Source: Candidatus Woesearchaeota archaeon (GTDB lineage Archaea > Nanobdellota > Nanobdellia > Woesearchaeales > GW2011-AR4). From it: 32,326 nucleotides of DNA. Under the pieces are notes generated by a model, which was given only the letters and a program-made list of their open reading frames with translations, ran no database searches and had not been told where the DNA came from. The stretch lies in the NCBI GenBank assembly GCA_018303655.1, contig JAGVXT010000013.1, positions 1 to 32,326 on the forward strand, in the 5' to 3' direction. The position numbers were made by a program, and so were the translations under genes. Positions 1 through 6,613 of the stretch are shown here, piece by piece (the stretch's first letter is position 1; each line of letters begins with the position of its first letter).

Positions 1-99
1 TTTTTGTATTATTCCTCTTTTGTTCCTCATGGTGGGGTACGCTCCCACCCCCGAAACAGCCTAATGGCTGTTCGGGTTAATATTATTTTCTACAAAGCC
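1..99. other. Left-edge non-coding stretch with two GC-rich hairpins
   Basis: No gene can be supported here. Two strong inverted repeats stand out in AT-rich DNA: GGTGGG/CCCACC around 31-49, and CCCGAA(A)CAGCC/GGCTGTTCGGG around 49-75 with a TAAT loop. On the minus strand they lie just before an ATG at 30 that opens ten codons (MRNKRGIIQK) and then leaves the window. They could be a leader structure of that gene, a terminator of a gene to the left, or part of a structured RNA. A TATA-like run at about 76-89 faces right and may be the original ychF promoter, now cut off by the transposon. Confidence 0.35.
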
Positions 100-106
100 G
101 ATTTTT

Positions 107-123
107 GGGCTTTGGCTCTAAAC
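107..123 (+). repeat. Left terminal inverted repeat of the transposon
   Basis: 17 bp, GGGCTTTGGCTCTAAAC, read from the outside in. It pairs with 4118-4134 with one mismatch. The sequence just outside it, GATTTTT at 100-106, is repeated outside the right end. Confidence 0.8.
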
Positions 124-173
124 CTTAATATCAACTATAAACCCTCATTTTGACTACAAACCAATTTACATAG
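117..173 (+). repeat. Three 19-bp iteron-like repeats inside the left transposon end
   Basis: Units beginning CTCTAAACC (117), CTATAAACC (136) and CTACAAACC (155) recur at an exact 19-bp period. The first overlaps the inner part of the left TIR. The spacing of nearly two helical turns would place bound protein on one DNA face, so a transposase-binding array is the natural guess. The unit tails are degenerate, so this is suggestive only. Confidence 0.45.
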
Positions 174-266
174 CGACTTTATATTCTATCCAAAAGAATT
201 AAATGAGTTTAAAGAATGAGTTAGTATAAGGTTAAATAGTTTAGACAAATAAAGTGGATATTAACT

Positions 267-608
267 CTATTTTTTGAGTGGATATTTCTTTTTAAATCTT
301 TCAATTGTTCCAGTGCTTATTGACGCATTACATTGTTTGCAAATTGGACGCAAATTTGATATAGCATTGCTTCCACCCTTTGCAACAGCCTTATTATGTC
401 CTACTTCAAAATTATAGATTGTAATAGGCTCTTTGAACACGTAACATCTTCCTTCCATCTTATTTCCAAAATATTTTTTCCATACTAAATCACGCACATT
501 TTTTGGTATCTTCTTTCTATTCCTTTCTCCTGATAATTTAGAAAACATAGCCTCATTCTCCCTTCCAATCTTACCCATAAGATTTGATATAGTTCCCATC
601 AACATCAT
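267..608 (-). CDS. HNH endonuclease-like protein (transposon cargo)
   Basis: 113 residues. The C-terminal half carries an HNH/McrA-type signature: EVGH with His71, then NLRPIC..CN with Asn85, Cys90 and Cys93. HNH folds bind one divalent metal and nick or cut DNA. The family usually has a zinc knuckle of two CxxC pairs, but here only Cys55 precedes the core, so the knuckle is incomplete or uses other ligands. The N-terminal 50 residues are basic and of unknown role. The ATG at 608 lies 4 bp after the stop of the lipoprotein gene on the same strand, so the two are probably co-transcribed. Function could be defence, transposon-associated cleavage or a degenerate homing-type enzyme; the sequence does not decide. 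Confidence 0.7.
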   Translation of the reverse strand: MMLMGTISNLMGKIGRENEAMFSKLSGERNRKKIPKNVRDLVWKKYFGNKMEGRCYVFKEPITIYNFEVGHNKAVAKGGSNAISNLRPICKQCNASISTGTIERFKKKYPLKK

Positions 609-612
609 CTTT

Positions 613-1254
613 TTAACTTGTTATTTTTGCCATTATTTGACCTACATTTGTATGCTGAATGCCAGGCGAACCATCTAAATTGGTTGTTGTATAGGTAACA
701 TTTAATTGTCCATCATATTTTGAGCCAGCATTAACGCATACAAATGTAAAATCCCCACTATTGCCATTTGCCACGCTGAAAGACAAACCCGTCAGGGCAG
801 TGCATTGCTGTGCTTTTGCACCAGTTACCATTATGTCGTAACCAAGCGAATTCTTGAAGACAATACGCAAACTTGTCGCAGTTGCCTTGTAGTCAAAGCA
901 AGCAAGCCCTGCCTGTAATGTGCATTTCTCTTGAAATACTTCACTTTTCGGTGCTTCTTTTTCCTTAACTTCTGGTTTAGTAGGCTCTGCTGGGGTTTCT
1001 ATAACTGGCGGTGTTATGCCTGATGGAGTTTCTTTTTCTTCAACTAAACCATCATCTTTATCGCAAATTGCATTGTCATTCTTATCTAAACAACATTCAC
1101 TTGAATATCTGATATAAGGTTTGTTGCATACAATCAATTCTTTTGATATTCTTTCTAAATCCTTGTCGCTTAATTTAGAAACATCTATTTTTTCACAGGC
1201 TGTTATAACTATAATAAGTAGCACCATTAAGACTAACAGAACCTCTTTTCTCAT
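613..1254 (-). CDS. Predicted extracytoplasmic lipoprotein (transposon cargo)
   Basis: 213 residues. A short basic N-terminus and a hydrophobic stretch (residues 4-19) end in the lipobox ITAC, with Cys20 as predicted lipidation site. Next comes a Cys/Asp-rich segment (about 45-70) with a calcium-loop-like DKNDNAICDKDD, then a Pro/Glu/Lys/Thr-rich linker (70-107). The C-terminal beta-rich domain begins CTLQAGLACFDY. That domain resembles the exposed domain of the membrane protein at 25793-26410 (C-x4-GL-x-C-x-[DE]-Y, then a hydrophobic strand, an N, and later paired Cys). Upstream on the minus strand, CTTTAAATAG near 1280-1290 is a good TATA box. A surface lipoprotein is unusual transposon cargo. 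Its molecular function is unknown. Confidence 0.65.
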   Translation of the reverse strand: MRKEVLLVLMVLLIIVITACEKIDVSKLSDKDLERISKELIVCNKPYIRYSSECCLDKNDNAICDKDDGLVEEKETPSGITPPVIETPAEPTKPEVKEKEAPKSEVFQEKCTLQAGLACFDYKATATSLRIVFKNSLGYDIMVTGAKAQQCTALTGLSFSVANGNSGDFTFVCVNAGSKYDGQLNVTYTTTNLDGSPGIQHTNVGQIMAKITS

Positions 1255-1300
1255 TTTGATTAGTCTATGAAGTAACCTCTATTTAAAGATTTTGGTAAGC

Positions 1301-1375
1301 ATATGGTAAATAGATGGGAATAAACTATATTACTATTCTTCTGGGGATTTTTAATTGAATATGGTAAGTAAATGG
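1301..1375 (+). promoter_or_regulatory. Promoter and repeated operator-like motif of the small wHTH gene
   Basis: A 17-bp motif ATATGGTAA(A/G)TA(G/A)ATGG occurs at 1301-1317 and 1359-1375 with two mismatches; the second copy covers the start codon of the wHTH gene. A third partial TTTGGTAAG lies at 1291-1299. A TATA-like ACTATATTA at 1324-1332 sits between the full copies, about 30 bp before the ATG at 1361. The layout fits autoregulation by the encoded wHTH protein, which is inference. Confidence 0.45.
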
Positions 1376-1615
1376 TATTTAATTAGTAAAATAAAATCAA
1401 GTAGTTACAGAAAGAATGTCCTAATTCTTTTACATAAAAAAGAAATGACTCCAAGAGAGTTGGAAAAAGAAGCAAAAATTAAAATTTCACATATAAGTAG
1501 AGCATTAAAAGAATTATCTGAATTGGGATTGGTTAAATGTCTCACACCCGATACAAGAAGAAGTAAAATCTACTCTATAACTAAATTAGGCAAAGATATT
1601 TTAAAGAAATTATAA
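1361..1615 (+). CDS. Small winged-helix DNA-binding protein (transposon cargo)
   Basis: 84 residues from the ATG at 1361; a TTG two codons earlier (1355) is a possible alternative. A classic wHTH pattern is visible: helix 1 'RKNVLILLHK', helix 2 'TPRELEKEAKI', recognition helix 'KISHISRALKELSELGLVKCL', and a wing ending 'RRSKIYSITKLGKDIL'. This resembles archaeal MarR/ArsR-type single-domain regulators. It ends convergently with the nuclease gene with a 6-bp overlap at 1610-1615. A repeated 17-bp motif spans its promoter and start codon, suggesting that it controls itself. It may also control the divergent lipoprotein-HNH pair that starts at 1254. Confidence 0.75.
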   Translation: MVSKWYLISKIKSSSYRKNVLILLHKKEMTPRELEKEAKIKISHISRALKELSELGLVKCLTPDTRRSKIYSITKLGKDILKKL

Positions 1616-2284
1616 ATGATTGCAGTTCCCAACCCATTTACAGAAGCCACAATCTTCATCAGGATTTGGTATTTTTCCTTCTAATACTTTTAATGCTTCT
1701 TTGAAGATTGTTTCAGCATTTTTTATTGAAACATCCATTTTTATTAAATCTGTATTAAAGACAACATCTCCATTTTCATTAACATTTTCTGGATGATAGA
1801 AAAGTAAATATGAATAATTTTCTGTTTCATAACTATTTTTTCTTAAAAGAAAATTGTAAATGTCCAATGAATTTTGATAGTGATTAGCAGTATCTTCCTT
1901 TAATTGAAAACCTCTTGTTTTGTAATCCAACACAATCAATTTTTGTAATTTTTGCAATATATTGTCAATTGCACCTCTAAACACATTGCCTTGTTCATCA
2001 GTCCATTGAAGACCTTTGAGATTATTTCTCCATATTTTCAGAAGTTCAACATTATCAAATAACTTTACATTGCCATTCAATTCTTCAAGTTCTGGTGGCA
2101 ATAAGCCTCTATCCCTAAATGAATCAAAATGTGTTTTTAATATTTTATCCATTCCAGAAGGTAATGAAGGGAATATTGTTGCTGGTCGCTTAATATCTTT
2201 ATTGAAATGAAGCCAGAAACATCTTGGACATTCTTTTAGTAAAGATAAACTTGATGGTGAAAATTTGTATGACATTTTAATCAT
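1610..2284 (-). CDS. Cas4-like PD-(D/E)XK nuclease with predicted Fe-S cluster (transposon cargo)
   Basis: 224 residues. An N-terminal ECPRC (Cys19/Cys22) and a C-terminal CGFCKWVGNC (Cys212, Cys215, Cys221) form the usual four-cysteine Fe-S site of RecB/Cas4-family nucleases. The catalytic core is visible as GAIDNI (Asp107), VLDYKTRG (Asp120, Lys122) and a HYQ motif (His135-Gln137). All key residues are present, so an active exonuclease/endonuclease is expected. Cas4 proteins resect DNA ends and trim CRISPR spacers, but there are no cas genes or CRISPR array in the window. This is therefore a solo, transposon-borne homologue. The start overlaps the stop of the upstream wHTH gene by 4 bp, so the two should be translationally coupled. 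Confidence 0.8.
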   Translation of the reverse strand: MIKMSYKFSPSSLSLLKECPRCFWLHFNKDIKRPATIFPSLPSGMDKILKTHFDSFRDRGLLPPELEELNGNVKLFDNVELLKIWRNNLKGLQWTDEQGNVFRGAIDNILQKLQKLIVLDYKTRGFQLKEDTANHYQNSLDIYNFLLRKNSYETENYSYLLFYHPENVNENGDVVFNTDLIKMDVSIKNAETIFKEALKVLEGKIPNPDEDCGFCKWVGNCNHL

Positions 2285-2568
2285 TCAACTTTTTTCCTAT
2301 AATAAATCCTTTTACCTATTTTTTCACTGCTTATCAGTCCATCTTCTTCTAATTTTTGAATTTTAACCTTTGAAGTAGCTGGATGCATATGTGTTAATCT
2401 TGCTATTTGAGTGTGTGTTAATCCAATCCTTGTATTCTCTAAATATTCAAGAATTGATTTTTCAAAAGGCGGGTATTTTTCAGGTGTAAGTTTAAATTTG
2501 TCTTTTTCCAATTCTAACTTTTTCTTTTCAAATTTTTTCTTTTTTTTAGGTGCTTTAAATTTTTCCAT
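2281..2568 (-). CDS. Winged-helix regulator with Lys-rich N-terminus (transposon cargo)
   Basis: 95 residues. Residues 3-25 are strongly basic (KKKKKFEKKK...), a likely DNA-contacting or disordered tail. Residues 35-95 form a MarR-like winged helix: 'KSILEYLENTRIGLTHTQIA', recognition helix 'HPATSKVKIQKLEEDGLI' and wing 'SSEKIGKRIYYRKK'. It lies 2 bp after the AbrB-like gene and overlaps the nuclease gene by 4 bp (2281-2284). The three thus form one tight minus-strand operon, regulator-regulator-nuclease. It probably regulates the operon or delivers the nuclease to DNA; neither can be told from sequence. Confidence 0.7.
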   Translation of the reverse strand: MEKFKAPKKKKKFEKKKLELEKDKFKLTPEKYPPFEKSILEYLENTRIGLTHTQIARLTHMHPATSKVKIQKLEEDGLISSEKIGKRIYYRKKVE

Positions 2569-2570
2569 TT

Positions 2571-2804
2571 TTAACCTTCGTATTTTACATATAACTTATT
2601 CTCTTTCCGAGTTTTTCCGAGATGAAATTCAAAAGTAAATTTCTTTTTTTCTTCATCCTTTGCTTTTTCTCTTGGCATCCCCATTTCTTTCGCTATTAGC
2701 GCAGGTATCCTGATTGAATGTTGCCTTCCGTCAAATTGAACTTTAACTGTTTTTGTAAATTTATTTGGATGTCTTTCTTCTTTTTGCTCATTATTCGCTT
2801 CCAC
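2571..2804 (-). CDS. AbrB/SpoVT-like small DNA-binding protein (transposon cargo)
   Basis: 77 residues. The segment 'TKTVKVQFDGRQHSIRIPALIAKEMGM' (about 18-44) has the strand-turn-strand-helix pattern of swapped-hairpin AbrB domains, followed by a charged linker and a C-terminal strand 'NKLYVKYEG'. Such proteins are commonly antitoxins or transition-state regulators. The GTG at 2804 is preferred because the mRNA-sense sequence AGGTGTGAT lies just upstream as a ribosome-binding site. The next ATG (2791) would be inside the disordered N-terminus. It is first gene of the operon with the wHTH and the nuclease, and a TATA-like run (TTATATATAA) lies upstream near 2850-2860. Confidence 0.6.
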   Translation of the reverse strand: MEANNEQKEERHPNKFTKTVKVQFDGRQHSIRIPALIAKEMGMPREKAKDEEKKKFTFEFHLGKTRKENKLYVKYEG

Positions 2805-2895
2805 TTATCACACCTTTTTTGCTTACTTATAAGGTATTACGAGCTTATATATAAATTTATCTAAAAATCATATGCTAATAAGATAAAAACCAAAA

Positions 2896-2957
2896 CATTT
2901 ATATACAAAATGCAATTTCCAAAGTAATACGAAAATAATACAATAATGATTTATTGT
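2896..2957 (+). promoter_or_regulatory. Transposase promoter with dyad operator
   Basis: CATTTATATAC at 2896-2906 is a good archaeal TATA box, predicting a start near 2930. A perfect 7-bp dyad, ACAATAA-TGAT-TTATTGT, fills 2940-2957, between that start and the ATG at 2968. It could be a repressor site or an mRNA hairpin limiting transposase expression. Confidence 0.5.
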
Positions 2958-2967
2958 AAGTAAGAAA

Positions 2968-4116
2968 ATGGCACAAGACAAAATGCAGGGTGTGAAGCCC
3001 ACAGAATTAAAAGATGATTTAACAGAACAGATAGACGACGACCTACTAAAAAAATCAAGAGAGTTGCTAAAAAGTGTGAACCCTGCTGTTAAAGACAAGC
3101 AACAAACACTTAATACATTTATTGACCCATACACTCCGAAGCCCTATGGAAGCAAAAAAACTTATCCACAGGATGATTGGTCATTATATGCTAAATCTCT
3201 TGGTAGAGAAAAAATAAATTCTCTTGTTATAATCAACGATGGAATTGATTTTTTGAACATTGGCTACAAGTATAAAGGAAATGGCAGACCACCTGTTGAT
3301 TTAAATGAAATTGCAAAATCTCTCGTTTTTGGTTCTTACAATAACTTTTCTTCTTGGAAAGTTGAAAGTGAATTGACATTGATAGCGCAGGCGATGGGAA
3401 TAATAGATAAGATACCTGCAAGAAGCACGTTTAACAAATATCGGAAAGACCCTGCATTAACTCCAATTCTTGAAAGATTATATAAGTTAATGGCAGAACC
3501 TCTTGCACCACTTGAAGACACCTTCATTGCGGACTCTTCTGGTATAAGCAACAGTTATGGAAACAAAAAATGGCGTGAAATCAGGCATAAAAAGGAAGAA
3601 CAAAAAGAGAGAAGAAAATTTAGTAAAATTCACATAATGATTGGTGCAAAGACAAAGATAATTTCTGCTGTCTTAATTACAGAAGGTTATCAGCACGAAA
3701 ACCGCACTTTAATCCCATTATTAAATGAGACTGCAAAAATATTTGACCCCGAGAGGGTATTGGCAGACGCAGGTTTTCTATCAAAAGGCAATGCGAAGGC
3801 AATTGCTGACATAGGCGCAGTTCCATACATCAGAACTAAAAAGAATGTTCATACTCCTATGAAAGGAGTTACCTCTGCCTATGGTAATATGTTAAGGGAA
3901 CAAAAAATCAATTCTACTATGTTTGATAGGATATATAATAAGCGTGCAATTGTTGAAGCGGTGTTCAGTTCTTTTAAGAGAACAAGGACTTCTTTTTGCA
4001 GGTCAAAATATCTTGTTAGCCAGAGAAATGAACTTCTTGCTAAAGTTGTGTGCCACAATGCCTCAATTTTAAGCCGAATGTTGTTGCGCCACAATTTGAA
4101 GTGCAAATTTCTATAG
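2968..4116 (+). CDS. IS4/IS5-superfamily DDE transposase
   Basis: 382 residues. The DDE catalytic triad is visible: Asp189 in 'IADSSGIS', Asp267 in 'VLADAGF', and Glu330 in 'YNKRAIVEAVFSSFK'. The last motif matches the IS4-type Y-x2-R-x3-E-x6-K signature exactly. The N-terminal third ('GRPPVDLNEIAKSLVFGSYNNFSSWKVESEL...') is the helical DNA-binding region usual for these enzymes. The reading frame is intact, so the enzyme may be active. The stop lies one base before the right TIR. ATG 2968 is used; ATG 2980 is an alternative. The 7-bp TSD is compatible with several IS4/IS5-type groups, so I do not name the IS family more closely. Confidence 0.9.
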   Translation: MAQDKMQGVKPTELKDDLTEQIDDDLLKKSRELLKSVNPAVKDKQQTLNTFIDPYTPKPYGSKKTYPQDDWSLYAKSLGREKINSLVIINDGIDFLNIGYKYKGNGRPPVDLNEIAKSLVFGSYNNFSSWKVESELTLIAQAMGIIDKIPARSTFNKYRKDPALTPILERLYKLMAEPLAPLEDTFIADSSGISNSYGNKKWREIRHKKEEQKERRKFSKIHIMIGAKTKIISAVLITEGYQHENRTLIPLLNETAKIFDPERVLADAGFLSKGNAKAIADIGAVPYIRTKKNVHTPMKGVTSAYGNMLREQKINSTMFDRIYNKRAIVEAVFSSFKRTRTSFCRSKYLVSQRNELLAKVVCHNASILSRMLLRHNLKCKFL

Positions 4117-4117
4117 A

Positions 4118-4134
4118 GTTTATAGCCAAAGCCC
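4118..4134 (-). repeat. Right terminal inverted repeat of the transposon
   Basis: Reverse complement reads GGGCTTTGGCTATAAAC, 16/17 identical to the left end. It is followed by the second target-duplication copy, GATTTTT at 4135-4141. Confidence 0.8.
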
Positions 4135-4141
4135 GATTTTT
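4135..4141. repeat. Target-site duplication, right copy (left copy 100-106)
   Basis: GATTTTT directly outside the right TIR equals GATTTTT directly outside the left TIR. Removing 107-4141 restores a continuous sequence leading into the ychF start region. Confidence 0.75.
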
Positions 4142-4178
4142 GGAAACTTTTTTAATGTCTTTAAGTTTAGCAGAAAAC

Positions 4179-5453: not shown

Positions 5454-5478
5454 GCGCTGGTGGTCTAATGGCTATGAT
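5454..5478 (+). pseudogene. 5' fragment of tRNA-Gly upstream of the endonuclease gene
   Basis: The first 20 nt, GCGCTGGTGGTCTAATGGCT, equal the 5' end of the complete tRNA gene at 6415. Here they continue straight into ATGATG, i.e. the D-stem 3' strand without the 35-nt D-loop intron, before homology stops. Including the two preceding T residues, 22 bp are identical between 5452-5473 and 6413-6434. Only an acceptor 5' strand and D-arm remain, so this is most simply a relic displaced by insertion of the endonuclease cassette. A trans-spliced tRNA half or the 5' exon of a ~1-kb intron are alternatives. Confidence 0.65.
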
Positions 5479-5519: not shown

Positions 5520-6383
5520 ATGAAATATCTAAATTTTCCAAAAAATCAACAAACTTTGTTCTTAAAATCAATTAAGTCAAAAACAAAATATTCATGGCGG
5601 AGACTTGCTGGTGTTTTAAACGTAAATAGAAGTATGTTATATTTTTATTTAAATGAATCTTCGAAATTATCATTAGATCGTTATATAAAATTATGCGACC
5701 TAGCTAAAATTAGACCAAAAAACATAGAAACTATTGAAATAAAAAATAAGCAAGTGACAATAAACATTCCAAGTCTATCCAACTTATTGGCAGAATTTGT
5801 TGGAGCATTGGCAGGGGATGGTCATGTTAATGATGTGACATATGAAGTATCAATTTCTATGGACAAGGATTTAGACAATCAATATTCAGATCATATTATA
5901 TATCTTTTCACGACTCTATTTAACATGACTACAAGGAAATTTGTTCAGAAAAATAAAGTAAAATGTTATGTTTATTCCAAAAGCCTTGTCTATTATTTAA
6001 GTGAAACTTTCCTGATTCCAATTGGAAAAAAGAAAGGAAAATTACATATTCCACAACAAATTAAAAATAACAATACTCTACTAAATTCTTATATCAGGGG
6101 TGTTTTTGATACAGATGGTTCTTTTCACAGACACCACAAAAACTCAGCTATGCTTGGGTTTTTTAGTAGAGATGAAACGTTTTTGAAAGAGTTACAGACT
6201 GCTTTAAGAAAATTTAAGTTTAACACCTATTTAAATGGAAAAAATCTATACATCTATAGAAAAGACCAAATAGATAAATTCTTTAAGGAAATAGCCCCTT
6301 CTAATCAGAAACATACAAGTAAATATGAGAGTTATATCAAAAATGGATTTGTGCCTCTTACTAAAGATATTTTGAATCGTTAG
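5520..6383 (+). CDS. LAGLIDADG homing endonuclease
   Basis: 287 residues with two LAGLIDADG helices: 'EFVGALAGDG' (residues 92-101, Asp100) and 'YIRGVFDTDGSF' (191-202), about 100 residues apart. This is the spacing of a single-chain, pseudo-symmetric enzyme that cuts a long asymmetric site. The first 70 residues contain an HTH-like segment ('SWRRLAGVLNVNRSMLYFYL'), probably DNA-binding. The reading frame is intact. Base composition is much more AT-rich than the neighbours, as expected for a foreign gene. It is flanked by copies of the tRNA-Gly 5' end (22-bp direct repeats), implying that the tRNA gene is its target. It has its own TATA box. Confidence 0.88.
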   Translation: MKYLNFPKNQQTLFLKSIKSKTKYSWRRLAGVLNVNRSMLYFYLNESSKLSLDRYIKLCDLAKIRPKNIETIEIKNKQVTINIPSLSNLLAEFVGALAGDGHVNDVTYEVSISMDKDLDNQYSDHIIYLFTTLFNMTTRKFVQKNKVKCYVYSKSLVYYLSETFLIPIGKKKGKLHIPQQIKNNNTLLNSYIRGVFDTDGSFHRHHKNSAMLGFFSRDETFLKELQTALRKFKFNTYLNGKNLYIYRKDQIDKFFKEIAPSNQKHTSKYESYIKNGFVPLTKDILNR

Positions 6384-6395: not shown

Positions 6396-6435
6396 ACAGT
6401 CTACTCCAATGGTTGCGCTGGTGGTCTAATGGCTT

Positions 6436-6551: not shown

Positions 6552-6613
6552 TCCCGGCCGGCGCATATATCAACCAAAAGGTTTATATACACTAAATCTA
6601 GTATTTTACCACT

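Follow-up and report, generated by a model that had tools for sequence, protein, structure and literature searches.

The window analysed here is a stretch of 32,326 nucleotides from a Candidatus Woesearchaeota archaeon (contig JAGVXT010000013.1). It contains a complete transposon of 4,026 bp with seven genes, at positions 108–4133 (Table 1). The inverted repeats of the element are GGCTTTGGCTNTAAAC, and an exact 9-bp target duplication, CGATTTTTG, bounds it on both sides. An alternative reading lengthens the direct repeat to 11 bp (CCGATTTTTGG) and shortens the terminal inverted repeat (TIR). All the genes from HNH (from 267) to the stop codon of the transposase (4116) lie within the element. 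A preliminary description of this DNA had placed three of the genes, coding for an AbrB-like protein, a winged-helix (wHTH) protein and a PD-(D/E)XK nuclease, on a transposon. This is correct, and the transposon is now delimited by its ends and by the 9-bp target-site duplication (TSD).

Table 1. Positions of the transposon features within the window, with the basis for each assignment.
Feature	Position	Strand	Basis or remark
Left 9-bp target-site duplication, CGATTTTTG	99–107		Identical to 4134–4142; abuts the TIR
Left TIR, GGCTTTGGCTCTAAACC	108–124	+	Identical at 15/17 positions to the reverse-complemented right end
HNH endonuclease, transposon cargo	267–608	−	PF01844, 28.7 bits (cut-off 21.4)
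213-aa cargo protein, lipoprotein-like N-terminus	613–1254	−	No Pfam family in Pfam scan
86-aa winged-helix protein, separate, convergent with nuclease	1355–1615	+	TrmB/EarA/ArsR-type Pfam matches barely above cut-off
Cas4/RecB-like PD-(D/E)XK nuclease, CxxC...CxxC, cargo	1610–2284	−	PF12705; fold search; invariant residues over 103 distinct homologues
Winged-helix protein, regulator pair gene 2	2281–2568	−	Weak Pfam matches; AbrB–wHTH pair recurrent beside transposases
AbrB-like protein, regulator pair gene 1	2571–2804	−	Family profile evidence
Divergent intergenic region between regulator operon and transposase; probable shared operator region (putative)	2805–2967		Short repeats over-represented in 5 of 10 related elements, not significantly so in the window
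IS5-like DDE transposase, 382 aa	2968–4116	+	PF01609, 2.1e-20; NCBIfam IS5_2, 1.3e-25, under the curated cut-off
Right TIR, reverse complement GGCTTTGGCTATAAACT	4117–4133	−	Pairs with the left end
Right 9-bp target-site duplication, CGATTTTTG	4134–4142		Identical to 99–107

A gene for a GTP-binding protein lies directly downstream of the insertion point, and the right flank of the element aligns upstream of this gene in congeners (20 searched). With only 107 bp of left flank before the contig ends, these 20 congeners revealed no empty site. These 107 bp contain inverted repeats, have no match upstream of the GTPase gene in congeners, and are possibly another repeat or mobile element.

Elsewhere in the window, a 20-bp direct repeat, GCGCTGGTGGTCTAATGGCT, occurs at 5454–5473 and 6415–6434. 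The repeat corresponds to the 5′ portion of what is probably a tRNA gene with an intron, which ends near 6564 (CCGGCCGGCGC), and the segment between the two copies contains a gene for a LAGLIDADG protein (5520–6383). It looks as if a homing-endonuclease segment has been inserted into the tRNA gene, regenerating its 5′ part. ARAGORN reported no tRNA at this site.

The best NCBIfam model for the transposase is IS5_2; the score is 90 bits, where the curated cut-off is 140, and related transposases reach 124–139 bits on the same model. The IS903 group of the IS5 family is characterized by GGCTTTG ends, a 9-bp TSD, a length of about 1 kb, and a transposase as the only gene. The window element resembles this group in having a DDE_Tnp_1 transposase related to IS5_2, GGCTTTG ends and a 9-bp duplication. 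It differs from it in its transposase, which is about 380 aa long with a profile score under the curated cut-off, and in its size, with kilobases of cargo on the left side where the IS903 group is compact.

The window transposase was used as a query to find related elements, which were then tested for inverted repeats and target duplication. The search identified 13 more cargo-bearing elements in DPANN genomes, with related transposases and duplications of 9 bp (or 9–11 bp). Their ends are mostly of the GGCTTTG type, this being the start of the left TIR that the window element and its relatives have in common. They are found in G183, G033, G016, G106, G102, G110, G004, G002, G093 and G299 (our genome numbers), in archaeon GW2011_AR20 (locus L110) and Nanoarchaeia STA_51 (locus L097), and in G191/G194, which is a single element present in two genomes and was counted once. 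The ends of the G093 element deviate (GGTGGTG/GGCTGTG). Two elements without cargo, in G339 and G343, also have related transposases; they are about 1.2 kb long and their ends differ. As a control, 400 random placements gave a duplication of at least 9 bp in two cases and a GCTTTG end in none.

The transposases at L216, L222, L226, L229 and L231 have an extra N-terminal stretch that is cysteine-rich and SWIM-like (CxC...CxCxH), which the window transposase lacks. Those at L219, L227, L228 and L150 adjoin a grpE-dnaK-dnaJ cluster in different genomes, which suggests that this neighbourhood is a preferred insertion region.

DNA methyltransferase or restriction-type genes were identified with Pfam on 7 of the 14 cargo-bearing elements, some of which were scanned in part. 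The cargo consists of N6_Mtase and Methylase_S in G033; an EcoRI methylase and GmrSD-HNH in G016; N6_Mtase with HSDR_N in G106; Dcm, HATPase and Vsr in L110; AAA/DUF4143 and N6_Mtase in L097; a ResIII helicase beside DUF2779 in G191/G194; and N6_N4_Mtase in G299. The cargo of other elements differs, with DUF1828/1829 and DUF6978 in G102, and NYN in G002. That the family is enriched in defence cargo is a reading of these results, not a measurement. In the window element, ORF translations and Pfam revealed no DNA methyltransferase among the genes, and its own role in defence is putative. As a separate observation, the DUF2779 protein of G191 and G194 (loci L286, L287), beside its ResIII-type helicase, is possibly another nuclease partner.

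The packing of the three minus-strand genes is exactly as first described: the AbrB-like gene, which has a GTG start, is followed after a 2-bp gap by the wHTH gene, which overlaps the nuclease gene by the 4 bp ATGA. The window AbrB-like protein alone has no Pfam match, and its AlphaFold model is poor (pLDDT 59). Its assignment as AbrB-like comes instead from the family profile, which aligns with four other AbrB-like proteins (hhalign 94%); PF04014 (MazE/SpoVT-AbrB) is matched by 3 of 12 family members, with E values up to 0.1 and a best value of 1.1e-5. The second protein had been described as a Lys-tailed wHTH. It has weak, sub-cut-off Pfam matches to several wHTH families. The Lys-rich part is an N-terminal extension rather than a tail, and is absent in relatives.

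In single-sequence searches the AbrB-like protein was nearly unique, and the wHTH protein gave generic matches only. Relatives of AbrB were found with a three-row AbrB profile. The same order of genes, with AbrB ahead of wHTH and both divergent from a family transposase, recurs in G090, G178, G301, G230, G106, G155 (contig 36) and G269, where the contig holds only the N-terminal part of the transposase. Several of the elements bearing the pair sit on contigs too short to include both ends. The genes that follow the pair vary. In G090, G178 and G106 there is a methylase/restriction fusion; in G269 an EcoRI-type methylase and then a GmrSD-like protein (both identified by their resemblance to the scanned proteins of G016); and in G301 and G155 other genes.

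The region between the transposase and AbrB genes contains short repeats, which are over-represented (p ≤ 0.015) in 5 of 10 elements, compared with 3 of 60 divergent intergenic regions from nuclease loci used as controls (Fisher p ~0.001). The test can be taken as supportive only of a possible operator, because the controls are themselves inflated (10/60 at p ≤ 0.05) and the repeats in the window's own region are not significant (p 0.2–0.7).

For the nuclease there were 401 confirmed matches in the genome collection, from which 80 loci were kept, and an AbrB gene is present in two of these (L100 and L124). There is therefore no fixed link between the nuclease and the pair. The tight coupling had suggested a functional module; that the three genes form an obligate one is not supported. 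Most nuclease genes sit outside transposons of this family. The nuclease often adjoins unrelated operons: of 60 upstream neighbours, 25 are same-strand genes no more than 10 bp away. Of the 80 loci (0.94 Mb), 5 have a transposase of the family no more than 8 kb away, where about 0.18 would be expected (P ~1e-6); the expectation assumes that genomes average 1.2 Mb, and the search behind it differed slightly in method. Restriction–modification (R-M) families are commoner near the nuclease (ResIII 6, N6_N4_Mtase 4 and HSDR_N 3 of 130; Pfam/PADLOC). The distant genes used as a comparison also include methylases, and the enrichment among immediate neighbours is modest.

The three families do nevertheless occur together elsewhere, as a gene-neighbourhood search showed. 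L124 (DeMMO1_8) has a transposase fragment, AbrB, a wHTH-like gene, a 48-aa protein, the nuclease, a 166-aa protein and Dcm (PF00145), opposite the restriction enzyme NgoPII (PF09521). In L023 (G093), AbrB, wHTH and a nuclease cut to 47 aa adjoin an HsdS-like gene. L217 (G178) has AbrB, wHTH, an 809-aa R-M fusion interposed before the nuclease, and the nuclease cut at 119 aa. L100 is without the wHTH gene, and consists of AbrB, a 49-aa protein, the nuclease, a PLD/helicase protein and an Eco57I-type methylase. A transposase of the same kind adjoins in L124, L217 and L100; in L110 and L097 the nuclease is inside TSD-bounded elements; and in all five of these loci a DNA methyltransferase is beside the nuclease.

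The nuclease could in principle be a RecB/Cas4-like enzyme of host DNA repair that has come by chance to lie between the regulators and the transposase. It has a RecB-type fold and many of the surveyed copies adjoin housekeeping genes. However, its distribution is not that of a housekeeping protein, since it is patchy and present in only 22 of 118 relatives. A second copy (67% identity) is found on contig 12 of the same genome, beside BRO-like and HNH-like genes and without the pair, and the nuclease repeatedly occurs in elements with R-M genes. A host repair role is thus considered unlikely. We give slightly less credence still to a toxin–antitoxin or addiction unit, in which the AbrB and wHTH proteins would be antitoxin and repressor and the nuclease the toxin. 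AbrB domains are common in antitoxins, members of the AbrB family match the MazE profile, and the genes are tightly coupled. Against this, the nuclease is usually without an AbrB partner, its homologues are found beside many unrelated operons, and behind the pair there are usually other genes.

The preliminary description had also named a factor helping transposition by end processing. In this reading the nuclease would process the ends of the element or of its target, in the manner of the extra nucleases of some transposons. The nuclease does share an element with the transposase, and a transposase is near and divergent in L110, L097, L100 and L124. Yet a related transposase is near in only 5 of the 80 nuclease loci kept, and most TSD-bounded elements, the cargo-less 1.2-kb ones included, have no nuclease. 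We regard a helper function as improbable.

The window nuclease matches PF12705 with 38.5 bits (cut-off 22), and its AlphaFold model is confident (pLDDT 90). A PDB sequence search gave no significant match. The best Foldseek matches include Cas4 (top), AdnAB, MGME1, RecE, lambda exonuclease and the Argonaute-associated Cas4 family protein ACE1 (PDB 9iac). The last of these shares the Cas4-type nuclease core, at a low TM-score of 0.27; unlike for ACE1, no Argonaute was identified here. A search of viral contigs with the nuclease sequence alone gave no match, and a search with the nuclease alignment gave 12 relatives (best 60% identity), which were used only in the joint motif count.

Conservation was counted over 104 distinct rows including the window (103 homologues), with residues numbered from the second Met (ORF residue minus 3). 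The catalytic residues are conserved, and C16, C19, D104, D117, K119, Y140, C209 and C212 are invariant wherever covered. The four-Cys cluster recognized at the outset is thus present in every homologue that covers it. At position 136, in the QxxxY motif, 102 rows have Gln and the window copy alone has Ser; judged from this substitution the window nuclease may be impaired or weakened.

The cysteines are arranged 2+2 (CxxC...CxxC), and a third C-terminal Cys is not conserved. CRISPR Cas4 has one N-terminal and three C-terminal cysteines, a layout from which the window nuclease differs. It is extremely improbable that the protein is a Cas4 of CRISPR adaptation, as its top structural match and a weak match to TIGR00372 might suggest, given this cysteine pattern, a TIGR00372 score of 23 bits against a cut-off of 65, and the failure to find Cas1 in the whole genome (88% complete), which extends the earlier remark that no cas genes are near. 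With a PF12705 score above gathering and no Cas1 found in the genome, it classes as a stand-alone Cas4-like nuclease.

It is concluded that the locus is probably a defence-cargo transposon of the IS5 type (IS903-like), in which the regulator pair belongs to the element and the nuclease is interchangeable mobile cargo. The arrangement itself is real, recurrent and mobile. The AbrB-like and wHTH proteins would be the regulators of the element, their genes being read away from that of the transposase. Their probable binding sites are repeats in the intergenic region between the two, a putative operator, from which they would repress both their own operon and the transposase. Behind the pair would come swappable cargo, often for restriction–modification. 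A link to defence, one of the functions first proposed, is favoured because the three families co-occur elsewhere, the same kind of transposase adjoins them in L124, L217 and L100, and the same element often carries R-M genes as well, although the window element has no DNA methyltransferase. The nuclease, which elsewhere accompanies R-M systems, is most likely an accessory defence nuclease that would act on cut or foreign DNA ends.

Nucleases of this kind are already known. Solo-Cas4 is encoded by most DPANN members, which are mostly without CRISPR-Cas, and in several genomes it is beside R-M genes; the same survey describes pfam12705 Cas4-like proteins with helicase fusions and with Dcm and Vsr in their contexts (Hudaiberdiev et al., 2017, PMC5704561). 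The window protein is like the solo-Cas4 of that study in being a PF12705 nuclease without CRISPR, frequent in DPANN. It differs from the nucleases described there in having no helicase fusion and CxxC...CxxC rather than one plus three cysteines, and from their solo-Cas4 in belonging to a transposon that is well defined by its TIR and TSD and carries a regulator pair.

The transposon vehicle with its dedicated regulator pair appears to be new. No description was found in the open-access library that was searched of DPANN IS5-type transposons with R-M cargo and an AbrB–wHTH pair, and a survey of Thaumarchaeota describes IS-like transposons that typically have one or two genes (PMC6563490). Toxin–antitoxin pairs are known beside Tn3 transposases (PMC7157771). 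The window element resembles Tn3 with such passengers in that a small gene pair adjoins the transposase, and differs from it in that the transposase is of another family, no toxin was identified, and the cargo downstream is variable.

A more far-reaching possibility, which we think less likely to be right than wrong, is that IS903-like transposons specialized in shuttling defence genes are widespread in DPANN. The AbrB–wHTH controller would then, like the C proteins of R-M systems, time the expression of the restriction cargo and the transposase after entry into a new host, and the nuclease with 2+2 cysteines would be a general R-M accessory enzyme.

The genomes of DPANN archaea are tiny and the organisms difficult to culture, and little is known of how they acquire and lose their defence genes. 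The element offers short, testable systems: its ends are defined, it has a putative operator region, and its nuclease is small, with cysteines in an unusual pattern. If the proposal is true, a simple transposon that carries R-M genes, solo Cas4-like nucleases and its own regulators would help to account for the scatter of solo-Cas4 genes reported in 2017.
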